This document shows positions 3,901 to 11,616 of a stretch of 64,000 bases of DNA, piece by piece. A model generated the notes under the pieces. The model was not told the DNA's origin. It did not search any database and worked only from the letters and a program-made list of their open reading frames with translations. The stretch's first letter is position 1. The number at the start of each line of letters is the position of its first letter. Location of the stretch: positions 62,001 through 126,000 of the forward strand of contig JAEUMR010000055.1 of assembly GCA_016791385.1 (NCBI GenBank), read 5' to 3'. A program made the translations under genes and the position numbers. The stretch is from Hyphomonadaceae bacterium. GTDB taxonomy: Bacteria; Pseudomonadota; Alphaproteobacteria; Caulobacterales; Aquidulcibacteraceae.

Positions 3901-4908
3901 ATGGCTCAAGCTGCCCAGAAGCCGAACGGCAAGCATACTGCTGAAGCAAGCAAGGACGAGCTGTTTCAATATTACCGAGACATGCTGTTGATCCGCCGCT
4001 TCGAAGAGCGCGCCGGCCAGCTTTACGGCATGGGGCTCATCGGCGGCTTCTGCCACCTCTATATCGGCCAGGAGGCGGTTGTCGTCGGCATGCAGGCGGC
4101 GCTGAGGGATGGCGATCAGGTCATCACCGCCTATCGCGATCACGGCCACATGCTCGCCGCCGGCATGAGTGCGAACGGGGTGATGGCCGAACTTACAGGC
4201 CGCCGCGACGGCTATTCCAAGGGCAAAGGCGGCTCGATGCACATGTTCAGCATCGAGAAGGCGTTCTATGGCGGCCACGGCATCGTCGGCGCGCAAGTCT
4301 CGCTCGGCACCGGCATCGCCTTCTCCAATAAATACCGCAAGGACGGCAAAGTCTGCCTCACGTACTTCGGCGACGGCGCCGCCAACCAGGGCCAAGTGTA
4401 CGAGAGCTTCAACATGGCGAGCCTTTGGAAGCTGCCTGTTGTCTACATTATCGAGAACAACCAATACGCGATGGGCACCGCAATCCAACGCTCGTCCTCG
4501 GAAACCCACCTCTACAAGCGCGGCATCAGCTTCAATATTCCTGGCGAAGAGGTCGACGGCATGGATGTCGTCGCCGTGCGCGAAGCGGGCAGGCGTGCAG
4601 TTGAGCGCGCGCGCGCAGGCGAGGGGCCGTATCTGCTGGAGATGAAGACCTACCGCTATCGCGGTCACTCGATGTCCGATCCGGCCAAGTACCGGACCAA
4701 GGAAGAAGTCGAGGCGATGAAGACCAAGCACGATCCGATCGAGCACGTGAAGAAGCTGCTGATCGATGCTGGTTACGCCAGCGAAGAGGAACTCAAGAAC
4801 ATCGATCGCGACATCCGCGCCGTCGTCACCGATAGCGCCGAGTTCGCACAAAAGAGCCCAGAGCCCGATCCGAGCGAATTGCTGACGGATGTGTACATCG
4901 AGGCGTGA
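3901..4908 (+). CDS. pdhA: pyruvate dehydrogenase E1 component subunit alpha
   Basis: This 335-residue subunit forms, with PdhB, the thiamine-diphosphate-dependent E1 that decarboxylates pyruvate and reductively acetylates the lipoyl group of E2. The ThDP motif GDGAANQGQVYESFNMA lies near residues 158-174, ending in ENNQYAMGT. The loop YRYRGHSMSDPAKYR corresponds to the region phosphorylated in mitochondrial E1 alpha, but no kinase is visible here. The ATG at 3901 has GGAGGAAC eight bases upstream; the longer frame back to 3775 lacks homology and is rejected. It begins the pdh cluster, 129 bases after ftsB. Confidence 0.97.
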   Translation: MAQAAQKPNGKHTAEASKDELFQYYRDMLLIRRFEERAGQLYGMGLIGGFCHLYIGQEAVVVGMQAALRDGDQVITAYRDHGHMLAAGMSANGVMAELTGRRDGYSKGKGGSMHMFSIEKAFYGGHGIVGAQVSLGTGIAFSNKYRKDGKVCLTYFGDGAANQGQVYESFNMASLWKLPVVYIIENNQYAMGTAIQRSSSETHLYKRGISFNIPGEEVDGMDVVAVREAGRRAVERARAGEGPYLLEMKTYRYRGHSMSDPAKYRTKEEVEAMKTKHDPIEHVKKLLIDAGYASEEELKNIDRDIRAVVTDSAEFAQKSPEPDPSELLTDVYIEA

Positions 4909-4931
4909 ATAAGCAGGGGGAGGAAACAACA

Positions 4932-5330
4932 ATGAGCATCGAACTCACTTATCTTGCCTACACCATCGCCGTTTTCTTCGTTGTCGTGCTGGCGCAGGCG
5001 ACCACGGGGATCGCCAATAATGGCGGCGCGGCCATGGCCAATGCGCGCGATAACCTGAAACCGCCGACAGTGATCCAAGCGCGCATGAAGCGCCTGACCG
5101 ACAATTTCCGTGAAAACCTCTGGTTCTTCACTCCGCTCATCCTGATCGCCGCCATCTCGAACATCTCCAATCAATGGACCGTTCTCGGCGCGCAGCTCTT
5201 CTTCTGGTCGCGCCTCGCGCACGCGGTCTGGTACGCGTTCGGCTGGCCGATTGTCCGTCCGCTGTTTTGGCTCGCCGGCGTGATCGCTTGCGTCCTGATC
5301 TTCCTTGCTCTGTTCGGGATTCTCGCCTGA
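4932..5330 (+). CDS. MAPEG family membrane protein
   Basis: This 132-residue protein has four predicted transmembrane helices. The MAPEG pattern is clear: [19 protein letters not shown] followed by the [11 protein letters not shown] helix, and later [24 protein letters not shown] proteins include glutathione-dependent membrane enzymes, but most small bacterial members have no known activity. The start at 4932 follows a strong AGGGGGAGGAAAC. The stop overlaps the pdhB start in TGATG, so it is translationally coupled into the pyruvate dehydrogenase operon. Its presence between pdhA and pdhB is unusual and its job there is unknown. Confidence 0.78.
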
Positions 5331-6712
5331 TGACGCAAATCCTCATGCCTGCCCTCTCGCCGACGATGGAGGAGGGCAACCTCGCCAAGTGGCACGTGAA
5401 GGTGGGCGATGCGATCGAGCCTGGCCAAGTCATAGCCGAGATCGAAACCGACAAGGCGACGATGGAAGTCGAAGCCGTCGATGAGGGTACGGTGACGGCG
5501 CTGTTGGTCGAAGAAGGCGCGCAAGGCGTGAAGGTCAACACGCCAATCGCCGTGCTCGACGATGGGAGCGCTCGCGCTGCAACTCCTCCTCCGCTTGCGG
5601 GGGAGGTCCGCGCGAAGCGGGGGGAGGGGGGCCGCCCCCTCAGTCAGCCCGCTACGCGGCCTGACAGCTCCCCCGCACGCGGGGGAGCATCAAGTGCAAC
5701 CGATCCGGAAGTTCCGGCTGGCGTACAGATGGTGAAGATCACCGTGCGCGACGCGCTCCGTGACGCGATGGCGGAAGAAATGCGCCGCGATCCGGACGTC
5801 TTCCTGATGGGCGAGGAAGTCGCGCAATACCAAGGCGCTTACAAAGTCAGCCGCGATCTGTTGCAGGAGTTCGGCCCCGAGCGCGTGGTCGATACCCCGA
5901 TCACCGAGCATGGCTTCGCTGGCCTGGGCGTGGGCGCGGCGATGTCGGGCCTTAAGCCCATTGTCGAGTTCATGACTTGGAACTTCGCGATGCAGGCGAT
6001 CGACCACATCATCAATTCCGCCGCGAAGACGCTCTACATGTCCGGCGGTCAGATCAAATCCTCGATCGTCTTTCGCGGCCCCAATGGCGCTGCCGCGCGC
6101 GTCGCCGCGCAGCACAGCCAGGATTACTCGTCCTGGTACAGCCACGTGCCCGGCCTGATCGTCATCGCCCCGTACGACGCGGCCGACGCAAAAGGTCTGC
6201 TCAAAGCCGCCATCCGCAATCCGAATCCAGTCGTCTTCCTCGAGCACGAAATGCTCTACGGCCAGGAATTCGAGATCCCGGATGTGAAGGATTGGGTCGT
6301 GCCGATCGGCAAGGCCAAAGTTCGCCGCGAAGGCGGCGACGTCACCATCACCGCGCATTCGCGCATGGTGGGGTTGGCGCTGAAGGCTGCCGAGCAGCTT
6401 GCAAACGAAGGCATCGAGGCCGAGGTGGTGGACCTGCGTACGCTGCGTCCGCTCGACACCGCCACCATCGTCGAAAGCGTGAAGAAAACCAGCCGCCTCG
6501 TCACGGTTGAAGAAGGCTGGGGCCAGAATGGCATCGGCGCGGAAGTCGCCGCGCGCGTCGTCGCCGAAGCGTTCGATTACCTCGACGCGCCGCCCGCGCG
6601 CGTGCACCAGGTCGATGCGCCGTTGGCCTACGCCGCCAATCTCGAAGCGCTGGCGCTGCCGAGCGTGGAGAAGATCGTCGATGCCGTGAAAGCGGTGACC
6701 TACCGGAGCTGA
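5330..6712 (+). CDS. pdhB: pyruvate dehydrogenase E1 component subunit beta with N-terminal lipoyl domain
   Basis: This is a 460-residue alphaproteobacterial-type PdhB: a biotinyl/lipoyl domain at residues 1-78 with the lipoylated Lys42 in [12 protein letters not shown], a low-complexity linker (about 79-132), and the transketolase-like E1 beta domain from VQMVKITV onward, including [17 protein letters not shown] and the C-terminal transketolase domain. It pairs with PdhA in E1. The start overlaps the upstream stop (TGATG). The linker at 85-121 is encoded by a palindromic repeat element (5583-5689), and the lipoyl-domain DNA is almost identical to that of pdhC. Confidence 0.97.
5345..5487 (+). 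repeat. lipoyl-domain DNA duplicated in pdhB and pdhC, copy 1
   Basis: This 143-base stretch of pdhB matches 7621-7763 of pdhC with only two mismatches that I can see (GTG/GTC for a valine and GCC/GCG for an alanine). The match is far better at the DNA level than protein conservation requires, because synonymous positions are identical too. Outside the block the two lipoyl domains diverge quickly. This points to recent duplication or, more likely, ongoing gene conversion between the two genes. Confidence 0.9.
5583..5689 (+). repeat. palindromic repeat element inserted in frame in pdhB
   Basis: About 107 bases made of nested hairpins: CTCCTCCGC/GCGGGGGAG (5586-5594 with 5597-5605), GTCAG/CTGAC (5643-5647 with 5661-5665) enclosing CCGC/GCGG, and CTCCCCCGC/GCGGGGGAG (5668-5676 with 5679-5687). 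This composition and architecture are those of the small palindromic repeats normally found between genes in GC-rich alphaproteobacteria. Here it is read through as 37 or so residues of the linker between the lipoyl and catalytic domains. Confidence 0.7.
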
Positions 6713-6714
6713 AC

Positions 6715-7101
6715 ATGAAGCGCGTCGTGCACTTCGAAATCCACGCTGACGATCCCGCCGCCTGCGCGCGCTGGTACGGCGCTCTGTTCGGCTGGACGAT
6801 GCAGGAAATGCCCGCGCTCGATTATTGGCTGATCAACACCGGCGAAGGCCCTGGCATCAGCGGCGGCATCGTTCGCCGCAAAGGCCCCAAGCCCGCGATC
6901 GGCGCGCCAGTCTCCTCGTTCGTCTGCACCATCGGCACCGACACGCTCGACGCCGATTTCGCCGCCGCGCTCAAGGCGGGCGGGGTTGAGGCGCTGCCGA
7001 AGACGCCGATCCCAGGCGTCGGCTACATCGCTTACGTGATCGATCCGTTCGGCAACATTTTTGGCCTGCACCAGGCCGATCCGAACGCTGGCCGCCCATG
7101 A
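6715..7101 (+). CDS. VOC (glyoxalase/bleomycin-resistance) family protein
   Basis: This 128-residue protein is one vicinal-oxygen-chelate domain with two beta-alpha-beta-beta-beta modules. It starts VHFEIHADDPAACARWYGALFGW, the usual N-terminal module, and ends GYIAYVIDPFGNIFGLHQ, the usual C-terminal strand with a metal-ligand-type DPFGN. Substrate cannot be inferred; members include glyoxalase I, dioxygenases and binding proteins. It starts two bases after the pdhB stop, so it is in the same operon. A role in removing a reactive by-product of pyruvate metabolism is speculation. Confidence 0.8.
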   Translation: MKRVVHFEIHADDPAACARWYGALFGWTMQEMPALDYWLINTGEGPGISGGIVRRKGPKPAIGAPVSSFVCTIGTDTLDADFAAALKAGGVEALPKTPIPGVGYIAYVIDPFGNIFGLHQADPNAGRP

Positions 7102-7126
7102 CGCTTGCCAAAGCAGGAGAGACGCC

Positions 7127-7606
7127 ATGACCGAAGGCGAAGTGATCGAGCAATTGATCGAGTTCACCTCCATCCTGCTGCTGGGCGTGTCGCTGATCTT
7201 CAGCATCGTCTCGGCCTACGTGGTCGCGCTCAATTATTTCATCGGCTCGGCCAATCTTGCTGCGCGCATCGCCAGCTTCGTGTTCATGACTCTGGTGCTC
7301 GGCATGCTGATGGCGACGATGGCCGGCGCTTCCTCCACGCAAGCGGGCCTGATCGCTCGCCTGCATGAGCTTGACGCCGCCGGCCAACTCACCGCCGCTG
7401 GCCGCGCCGCGCTGGCCAACGCCACACCGGAAATCATCGGCGTCGTCACGCATCATGCCTACAGCATCGACCAGATCGTGCTCTTGTGCGCCTGGGTGGG
7501 CATGGGCGCGGTGTATCTGGGCCTTGGCTATCTCACCTTCTTGCACCGCTGGCGCCCGGACGTGATCAACGTTTCGGTGCAGCCCAAGGAAAGACGCACC
7601 GCATGA
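7127..7606 (+). CDS. uncharacterised three-helix membrane protein in the pdh operon
   Basis: This 159-residue protein has hydrophobic segments at about residues 13-38, 44-66 and 118-142, and a soluble loop of about 45 residues ([20 protein letters not shown]) between the second and third. The ATG at 7127 has AGGAGA six bases upstream. The stop overlaps the pdhC start (ATGA), so it is translationally coupled to E2. I do not recognise a family. With the MAPEG protein and the protein at 8977, it is one of three small membrane proteins threaded through the pyruvate dehydrogenase genes. Confidence 0.72.
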
Positions 7607-8913
7607 CCACGCAAATCACCATGCCTGCCCTCTCGCCGACGATGGAGGAGGGCAACCTCGCCAAGTGGCACGTGAAGGTCGGCGATGCGATCGAGCCTGG
7701 CCAAGTCATAGCCGAGATCGAAACCGACAAGGCGACGATGGAAGTCGAAGCGGTCGATGAGGGCGTGATCGAAGAATTGCTGGTGCCCGAAGGCGCGCAG
7801 AACGTGAAGGTCAACACCCCGATCGCGCGGCTGAAGGGCGAGGGTGAAGCGAAGACGCCGCCGAAGCAGCAGGCTCAACCGCAACCTTCCCCCCGTGCGG
7901 AGGAGGGCAAGGTGGGCGCCGGCGCGGCCAAGTTCAGCACCCCCACCCCCGGCCCCTCCCCGCAAACGGGAGGGGAGAGAATATTCGCTTCGCCGCTGGC
8001 GCGACGGCTGGCCAAGCAAGACGGCATCGATCTATCCGGCCTGCATGGCTCCGGCCCGCATGGCCGCATCATCAAGCGCGACATCGAAGCGGCGCTGAAG
8101 GCGCCGCGGCCGCAGGCTGCCCCGGAAGCGCGCGCGCAATCGCGCGAACTCACCACCGGGCGCGAGGCGCGCAGCGAGACGCCGGCGCTGCGCCGTTCGC
8201 TGGAGCAGATGGGCATCCGCGCCGGCAGCTACGACCTCGTGCCGCTCGACATGATGCGCAAGACCATCGCCAAGCGCATGACCGAAAGCTTCCGCGATGT
8301 GCCGCATTTCCCGCTGACCATCGACATCGAGATCGACGCGCTGCTCAAAGCGCGCGGCGAGATCAACAAGCGCTTCGGCGACAACGGCGTGAAGATCTCG
8401 GTCAACGACATGTGCATCAAGGCCGCTGCCCTGGCGCTGAAGCTGGTGCCGGAATCCAACGCCAGCTACACGCCCGATGGCGTCGCCATGCACCATCACG
8501 CCGACATCGCCGTCGCCGTGGCGATCCCCGGCGGCTTGATCACGCCGATCATGTGGGCGGCGGAAACCAAGGGCCTCGCGCAAATCAGCGCCGAGATGGC
8601 CGATCTGGCGCAGCGTGCGCGCGAAAAGAAACTGCGGCCCGAGGAATTCCAGGGCGGCACGTTCTCGATCTCGAACATGGGCATGCTCGGCATCAAGAGC
8701 TTCGCTTCGATCATCAACGAGCCGCACGGCATGATCATGTCGATCGGCGCGGGCGAGAAGCGCCCAATCGTCAAGAACGACGCGCTGGCGATCGCGACAA
8801 TGATGACCGTCACCGTCACCTGCGATCACCGCGTCGTCGACGGCGCGCTGGGCGCCGCCTTCCTGAAGGCCTTCCGCAGCTTCCTGGAAGACCCGATGGC
8901 GATGTTGCTCTAA
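7603..8913 (+). CDS. pdhC: pyruvate dehydrogenase E2, dihydrolipoamide acetyltransferase
   Basis: This 436-residue protein is the core of the pyruvate dehydrogenase complex and transfers acetyl groups from lipoamide to CoA. In order: one lipoyl domain (1-80, lipoyl Lys43), a linker, a peripheral-subunit-binding domain ([17 protein letters not shown], about 128-165), a second linker, and the catalytic acyltransferase domain from about 210, with the active-site CDHRVVDG near residue 406. The ATG start overlaps the preceding stop (ATGA). The first linker (about 95-127) is encoded by a palindromic repeat element at 7884-7978. Confidence 0.97.
7621..7763 (+). repeat. lipoyl-domain DNA duplicated in pdhB and pdhC, copy 2
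   Basis: This is the partner of 5345-5487, with two mismatches over 143 bases. Immediately downstream the genes part (pdhB reads GTVTALL, pdhC reads GVIEELL), which sets a sharp boundary for the homogenised block. Confidence 0.9.
7884..7978 (+). repeat. palindromic repeat element inserted in frame in pdhC
   Basis: This stretch of about 95 bases holds a CCCCTCCC/GGGAGGGG hairpin (7953-7960 with 7968-7975, loop CGCAAAC) and an upstream imperfect one (TTCCCCCC...GGAGGAGG). In protein it reads PSPRAEEGK and then [15 protein letters not shown]. The latter is the typical translation of a common intergenic palindromic repeat of GC-rich alphaproteobacteria. It forms the linker between the lipoyl and subunit-binding domains of E2. 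Confidence 0.65.
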
Positions 8914-8976
8914 CGCTCCGCGCTTGACGGCGCAGCTTATCCCAGGTCCATTCCGCCCGCGGGCGAGGGGGCATTC

Positions 8977-9411
8977 ATGGGCAGCATCAGCGCACAGCTC
9001 GATCTTCTGGCGGATCGGGCCAGCGATCTGTGGTTCTTGGCGCTGGTCGGCTCGTTCTTCGTCATGATCTGCGAAGCCGCCAAGCCCAAGCGCGCCGAAG
9101 GCGAAGCGCGCGAGGCGACCGGCGCGCTCGGCGTCTGGATCGGCATCCTCAGCCTGCTGACGCCGCTCTTGCTGTTCGTGCACGCCTTTCTCACCGCGCA
9201 GGGCTCGCTGATCGCCATCATCGTGCTGATCGGCGCCGCCATTATCGGCGCCAGCCTGATCGGCTGGATCATCAGCGCCGCAGCGAAGGATTTCGGCCGC
9301 GTGCTCAATCGTGCAGCGCCGATCCTGGCGCTCGCCGTGTTCGCGCTGACGCTCTATGTGACCTGGGACAGCGTCTTCGCCTTCATCGGCATTTTCGTGG
9401 GCCGGCGATGA
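8977..9411 (+). CDS. uncharacterised four-helix membrane protein
   Basis: This 144-residue protein has hydrophobic helices at about 18-33, 48-72, 77-101 and 112-140; the charged loop EAAKPKRAEGEAREATG lies between the first and second. No family is recognised. It begins 63 bases after pdhC and its stop overlaps the marC start (ATGA), so it is probably co-transcribed with both. Codon use matches its neighbours. Confidence 0.72.
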   Translation: MGSISAQLDLLADRASDLWFLALVGSFFVMICEAAKPKRAEGEAREATGALGVWIGILSLLTPLLLFVHAFLTAQGSLIAIIVLIGAAIIGASLIGWIISAAAKDFGRVLNRAAPILALAVFALTLYVTWDSVFAFIGIFVGRR

Positions 9412-11514: not shown

Positions 11515-11517
11515 AAT

Positions 11518-11614
11518 ATGGAGCGCCGGCGTCCTCGCCGGCATCCACGCGAAGCAGGGGACTCGCACCTTAGCGTTTGTGCGAAGAAGGCCGGCGAGGA
11601 CGCCGGCGCTCCAT
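11518..11614. repeat. palindromic repeat with perfect 25-base arms between convergent genes
   Basis: Bases 11518-11542 are the exact reverse complement of 11590-11614 (core GCGCCGGCGTCCTCGCCGGC), with a 47-base middle. The element occupies essentially the whole gap between the lpd stop (11514) and the stop of the acyl-CoA synthetase (11617). It can act as a bidirectional transcription terminator, but its length and composition also match a dispersed intergenic repeat of alphaproteobacteria. It shares no obvious sequence with the pdhB and pdhC elements. Confidence 0.8.
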
Positions 11615-11616
11615 GC

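Follow-up and report, generated by a model that had tools for sequence, protein, structure and literature searches.

The pdhB gene of this genome raises the question of how palindromic DNA comes to be translated in the middle of a conserved enzyme. The window, which is the whole stretch of 64,000 nucleotides that was analysed, corresponds to positions 62001-126000 of contig C37 in an assembly of 2.65 Mb, 87 contigs and 83% completeness. The gene (5330-6712, plus strand) encodes a 460-residue pyruvate dehydrogenase E1-beta with an N-terminal lipoyl domain, and Pfam places Biotin_lipoyl at residues 3-76, Transket_pyr at 136-311 and Transketolase_C at 327-449. BLAST and an alignment of copies delimit an in-frame palindromic element at 5583-5692 (plus strand), approximately residues 85-121 of PdhB, which is assigned to family A; the family letters (A, B, D and so on) are our own labels. 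An earlier note had described 5583-5689 as a palindrome read in frame as the linker between the lipoyl and catalytic domains, and both the palindromic structure and the location are borne out. Residues 80-123 have an AlphaFold2 pLDDT below 50 and no secondary structure; the linker with its element is predicted to be disordered, which agrees with the flexible linker proposed in the note.

The element consists of two outer palindromes of 20 nt and two inner stems, all given on the plus strand. The head palindrome (5586-5605) has one mismatch to CTCCCCCGCNNGCGGGGGAG and the tail palindrome (5668-5687) is exact. Between them are the stem GAGGGGG/CCCCCTC (5624-5641), which is taken from the predicted fold, and the stem GTCAG...CTGAC (5643-5665), which is seen in both fold and alignment and has an inner part that varies among copies. 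The element with its flanks (5575-5700) has a folding energy of -81.3 kcal/mol compared to a mean of -61.0 in 200 dinucleotide shuffles, a z of -5.4, and none of the 200 shuffles folds equally well. The note had counted three nested hairpins. The hairpins are present, but their arrangement, nested or adjacent, varies with the fold considered; in the lowest-energy fold the two outer palindromes pair with each other instead of forming side-by-side hairpins. This mutual pairing of the outer arms, which is imperfect, provides the terminal inverted repeats used to recognise MITEs. The outer palindromes are conserved in the consensus of 12 aligned family A copies, the window's included. Both sides have changed in 7 of 31 predicted pairs among these copies and the covariation term is small (-0.12); such two-sided changes are the normal expectation for any palindrome family. 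The 20-nt hairpin, at up to 3 mismatches, has 3 matches in the window compared to 0.23 expected. Rfam, run on positions 4800-9000 of the window, returned two matches, both under their gathering scores and neither at the element.

Family A is dispersed in its own genome, as the note had supposed, with 14 BLAST matches at 11 places including the window copy. At five of these places the family models put the element in frame inside a conserved gene: PdhB, UvrC, ThiC, TrmFO and a second E2-type acyltransferase, in which it lies between the E3-binding and catalytic domains. The others are mostly intergenic. One copy between rimP and nusA forms the C-terminal tail of RimP, another separates serC from a gene that looks by eye like serA, and further copies precede thiG, recF and, at the end of a contig, a paaE-like gene. 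The copy on contig C72 is at a place with no family match; a coding-frame scan put it in a minus-strand frame, and therefore it was left out of the intragenic count. The same scan, run on 9 own-genome copies, missed the second E2, which is in frame according to Pfam. At up to 2 mismatches the hairpin is found at 16 places in the own assembly, 15 of which are these elements and one of which (C37:10767) looks unrelated; the reversed-hairpin control gives 2 matches per strand. Of 81 genomes, counting this one, 43 have the exact hairpin and none has the reversed control; there are 12 copies in the own genome and as many as 35 in G011.

Among 30 genomes of the genus, 16 have the head of family E and 21 that of family B, with 0 for the control. 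Thirty family E loci, a non-random choice of at most two per genome, were scanned for coding frame; the scan placed 4 in frame and 21 out of frame, with 5 too near contig ends. The four in-frame copies are in four other genes (L268, L272, L273 and L277), two of which resemble, by eye, DNA polymerase I and isoleucyl-tRNA synthetase. Y1_Tnp, the Y1 transposase (RAYT) with which GTAG/CGTC REPs are associated, is present in 21 of 49 genomes without a clear link to hairpin copy number. By hand tally it occurs in 8 of the 11 genus genomes with at least 7 hairpins compared to 8 of the 19 others, and it is absent from G018, which is 99% complete and has 19 hairpins. Neither a transposase nor a target-site duplication nor an observed transposition event links the families to a way of moving. 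Empty and filled ThiC sites, compared by eye, are strongly different around the insert and a target-site duplication is unreadable there.

Of the 81 genomes, counting this one, 77 gave a PdhB match, and the linker was read in 74. Rows were dropped for G011, G024, G028 and G032 (no match) and for G012 and G039 (partial or paralogue). By eye, the linker holds family A in G000, G022, G005 and G008, half a family A copy in G018, family B in six genomes (G029, G006, G003, G020, G016 and G026), an A/B chimera in G025, family E in G021 and family D in G013; 11 genus members have a plain Lys/Ala/Pro linker. In close relatives the segment is absent or replaced by an unrelated one. The note would have given up its reading had there been no other copy in the genome, or had the segment been conserved as protein with other codons; copies exist and the relatives differ. 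In G023 (L074) the pdhB reading frame breaks inside a family A copy, possibly a genuine separation of the lipoyl region from the catalytic one, or else a GC hairpin misread in sequencing.

The fold z under synonymous recoding separated repeat-bearing from ordinary linkers poorly; therefore, an occupied slot is called supported when its DNA has BLAST matches (E<1e-5) to repeat copies at non-orthologous places. PdhB linkers have such matches in 17 of 74 rows and in 13 of 25 genus rows. Across the class 7 of 80 PdhB rows are supported, with L145 weak. Two of these seven, L135 and L139, duplicate the linkers of G003 and G036; L135 is a Hyphomonadaceae MAG with a linker identical to that of the genus member. 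L136, listed only as Proteobacteria, has the same linker as G013. Inspection by eye suggests that repeats of further families are translated in the linkers of L186, L209, L147 and L151, which come from MAGs of Parvularculaceae, Methyloceanibacter and Caulobacteraceae. The mean linker length in the genus, by hand arithmetic, is 54 residues with an element (n=14, 13 of them BLAST-supported) and 46 without (n=11). Since the element is about 37 residues long, the old linker has mostly been replaced by it, and the earlier suggestion that repeats now set the linker length is not upheld.

A second slot lies in the same window. The lipoyl-PSBD linker of pdhC (7834-7986, plus strand, inside pdhC 7603-8913) is a degenerate stretch read by eye as a repeat remnant. 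It contains a hairpin match with 3 mismatches at 7886-7905 and gave no non-orthologous BLAST match at 1e-5. Among relatives, this linker matches non-orthologous repeats (E<1e-5) in 10 of 29 rows. The second PdhC linker, from the PSBD to the catalytic domain, has repeat matches in 0 of 30 rows and was never occupied. This type of control linker is not barred everywhere, because the second E2 of the own genome holds its element there. The E2 rows that were read are the best 30 loci. The lipoyl domains of the two window genes (pdhB 5324-5487 and pdhC 7600-7763) have 96% DNA identity over 164 nt, which suggests a recent gene conversion or duplication.

Three further slots are in UvrC, ThiC and TrmFO. 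The UvrC slot, after the RRFARM motif, is occupied in 18 of 25 extracted rows (BLAST, E<1e-5) by family A, B, E or an A/B chimera. Rows could not be extracted for G001, G011, G014, G026 and G028; that of G002 was extracted, has no repeat match and was omitted from the change count. The UvrC slot of G011 (L239) appears to be a compound in which one repeat family is nested in another. The region has about 3 residues in the solved chain 3c65 compared to 69 here, 47 of which are the slot.

The ThiC loop, as delimited here, has 22-24 residues in 10 genomes and 34-60 in 13. Six families were distinguished in it by eye: A in G000 and G005, with an A-like form in G008; F1 in G003 and G014, with a remnant in G022; F2 in G001, G006 and G025; G in G021 and G028; H in G009; and I in G004, which was read on a second contig piece. 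Of the 23 rows, 13 were called filled and 7 have BLAST support. Rows with F1, G and H gave no BLAST match at 1e-5, even though an F1-like copy from the window was in the searched set. That copy, at 11516-11616 of the window, is a palindrome of another kind than family A with 25-nt arms that are 100% complementary, and by eye the same kind is in frame in ThiC of G003 and G014. It takes up nearly the entire gap between the convergent lpdA and acyl-CoA synthetase genes (names by eye). The ThiC slot has 4 residues in the solved chains 4s2a and 3epm, which we take to be from Caulobacter, compared to 34 here. Because the ThiC and UvrC regions are short in the solved chains, the inserts there are additions, and the empty ThiC slot is probably the ancestral state. 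ThiC rows were dropped for G011, G012, G015, G016 and G024 (no match) and for G017 and G026 (partial).

The TrmFO slot was extracted automatically in 21 genomes, and 13 of the 14 slots long enough for testing have repeat matches. These 13 hold family A, B, J or K, all with matches below 1e-5, those of G021 and G017 only barely so. The slot is 10-11 residues long in 7 genomes (G016 by eye) and 13-15 in G029 and G011. G028 had no TrmFO match, and G001, G004, G007, G015, G019, G023 and G024 were not extracted.

Random 150-nt segments from the same loci served as controls. Repeat matches were found for 0 of 105 segments of ThiC, 1 of 150 of UvrC, 14 of 375 of PdhB and 19 of 150 of E2. The E2 and PdhB control matches fall on a paralogous E2 locus and on the window, and the single UvrC match falls on dispersed repeat copies.

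The same positions are occupied repeatedly and by different occupants. Changes were counted as minimum numbers on a quick four-gene tree of the genus, in which 10 of 31 inner branches have less than 80% support, G014 is a long branch and G011, G012, G024 and G026 are under half filled; labels and filled or empty states were assigned by eye, with ten labels besides family A. The G023 PdhB row with its broken frame was added by eye, and G009 was left out for E2 as its state is ambiguous. The minimum number of occupant changes is 9 for PdhB (26 rows), 12 for ThiC (23), 14 for UvrC (24), 11 for E2 (22) and 11 for TrmFO (22), a total of at least 57. Changes between filled and empty alone number 6 for PdhB, 7 for ThiC, 5 for UvrC, 7 for E2 and 7 for TrmFO, a total of 32. 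The calls by eye exceed BLAST support for PdhB (15 compared to 13 in the genus), E2 (12 compared to 10, with G000 and G022 lacking support) and ThiC (13 compared to 7), and equal it for UvrC (18) and TrmFO (13).

The sister pair G005/G018 (97.0% identity over 1429 residues) differs in 4 of 5 slots, every filled one being supported by BLAST, and is the most divergent in its slots among the six sister pairs compared. The pair G000/G022 (95.6%, 977 residues) differs in 3 of 5 slots and G027/G029 (95.2%, 1429 residues) in 1 of 5. Among comparable slots the differences are 1 of 3 for G001/G010, 1 of 2 for G007/G017 and 1 of 2 for G012/G013. Since these differences are unequal, turnover is rapid in some lineages and slower in others. 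What persists across the genus is the slot and not the element, as it may be empty or filled by family A or by other palindromic families.

The explanation favoured here, with a probability of about 0.75, is that mobile palindromic repeats strike genes widely and that in-frame copies persist in a few tolerant loops. On this view the PdhB segment belongs to a palindromic repeat that is about 105-135 bp long, dispersed, and built of two outer hairpins joined via inner stems, and family A would behave like a small non-autonomous mobile element. Many repeat families would insert broadly across the genome. Copies that hit genes would be purged unless the frame is kept and the loop or linker tolerates about 10-50 extra residues. 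Because of this purging outside tolerant loops, the same few loops would be filled repeatedly by whichever families are active in a lineage, and the occupants would later decay or be deleted or replaced. In PdhB the element would have displaced the greater part of an older swinging-arm linker rich in Ala, Pro and Lys, and would act as a passive flexible tether. We infer from the pattern of occupancy that the repeats are mobile and that they last only at protein positions able to take additional residues.

The occupants could instead have been exchanged in place, with each slot colonised once and its repeats then swapped by homologous recombination or gene conversion in the absence of new insertions. 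Chimeras that join a head resembling A to a tail resembling B (PdhB of G025 and G038, UvrC of G010), the compound or nested UvrC occupants of G011 and G022, and the head-centre-tail layout that families A, B, D and E have in common by eye are consistent with exchange. However, the families in ThiC (A, F1, F2, G, H and I) and TrmFO (A, B, J and K) have no visible similarity to each other, and such dissimilar occupants, together with some empty sisters, are more easily explained by fresh insertions. Exchange in place is rather unlikely. That the pattern is an artefact of assembly or binning in fragmented metagenome genomes is very improbable. The own genome is in 87 contigs and 83% complete, and some repeats are at contig ends (L010, for instance, and in G011 many matches to families B and E), but the single-contig G020 holds BLAST-supported occupants in PdhB, E2, UvrC and TrmFO, the single-contig G027 holds one in UvrC, and orthologous A copies are at the same PdhB position in G000, G022, G005 and G008.

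A service to the host, whether through an mRNA hairpin that would delay the ribosome between domains or through a selected linker peptide, is improbable. Such a role would suit the domain-boundary position in PdhB and E2. It would also suit the pN/pS values below 1 in the linker: in 9 element-bearing pairs the linker has 0.25-0.49 compared to 0.11-0.18 for the catalytic domain, and in 3 plain-linker pairs 0.17-0.22 compared to 0.04-0.11. The element linkers evolve faster than their catalytic domains and lie above the plain linkers, but at values below 1 they are under some constraint. The fold results are divided. Against synonymous draws with the window's codon use, the PdhB linkers of G079, G025 and G013 fold better (z -6.2 to -4.3), but G008 (+0.6) and G022 (+0.4) are at chance and the window copy is only slightly better (-1.8). 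When each linker's own synonymous codons are permuted instead, the family A linkers of G005 (-4.9), G008 (-3.0) and G000 (-2.9) score low, as would be seen for a recent palindrome, but G022 is again at chance (+0.1); the two null models conflict for some rows, as the values for G008 indicate. The head hairpin has been lost from the PdhB elements of G018 and G023, empty forms and unrelated families do equally well, and none of the slots in UvrC, ThiC and TrmFO is a lipoyl-domain linker. Selection for the hairpin itself is not established.

The note had compared the element to the Rickettsia palindromic elements (RPE), and the comparison is apt in that both are palindromic repeats in frame in conserved genes; protein-coding palindromes similar to RPE have reportedly been found in Wolbachia as well. 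RPE are described as dispersed palindromic repeats of about 100-150 bp, located in frame in conserved protein genes and between genes (PMC2229807, PMC10969869). Family A is likewise palindromic, dispersed and present both in frame inside conserved genes and intergenically, and in size, palindromy and in-frame position it is analogous to RPE. The differences are a GC-rich, Hyphomonadaceae-like host and the turnover of several families in a few common slots between sister species. Intragenic REPs of the GTAG/CGTC type are described within genes, especially those for excinuclease ABC and DNA polymerase I, and insertions in flexible linkers or loops are considered there to be possibly neutral (PMC3733652). 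The repeats here are also inside genes, UvrC among them. By eye, no conserved GTAG or CGTC end is present in the 12 aligned family A copies, and unlike the REPs as described in that paper (PMC3733652) the orthologous slots here are refilled by different families. The alphaproteobacterial CIR repeat is described with long stem-loops at both ends (PMC2229807), as strictly intergenic (PMC10969869) and as tied to DNA methylation sites. Family A differs in its five in-frame intragenic copies in the own genome. The methylation-site motif of CIR is GANTC, and by eye none is present in the window's element.

In-frame palindromes such as RPE and intragenic REPs, excision-repair genes among their hosts and linkers or loops proposed as tolerant sites, already appear in the published accounts (PMC2229807, PMC3733652, PMC10969869). 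Orthologous slots common to several families that turn over were not found reported in the open-licence literature searched. Within that literature, and as far as found, the refilling of slots by different families across sister species outside Rickettsia is new. The literature matches listed for the element's DNA and peptide strings look unrelated by title.

It is conceivable, at somewhat less than even odds, that the loops of PdhB, E2, UvrC, ThiC and TrmFO are shared and renewable landing sites, where unrelated repeats come and go at a pace that lets sister species differ in the majority of slots and where mobile DNA is the main source of new linker sequence. For annotation, strings such as PPPLAGEV or SPLAGEGWEGG are in these genomes translated repeats and not protein motifs. 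The reviews appear mostly to treat palindromes in genes as single insertions, gene by gene. With multi-family slots, empty orthologues and an unoccupied control linker, insertion tolerance becomes countable, and the slots supply naturally occurring sets of loop insertions within conserved enzymes.
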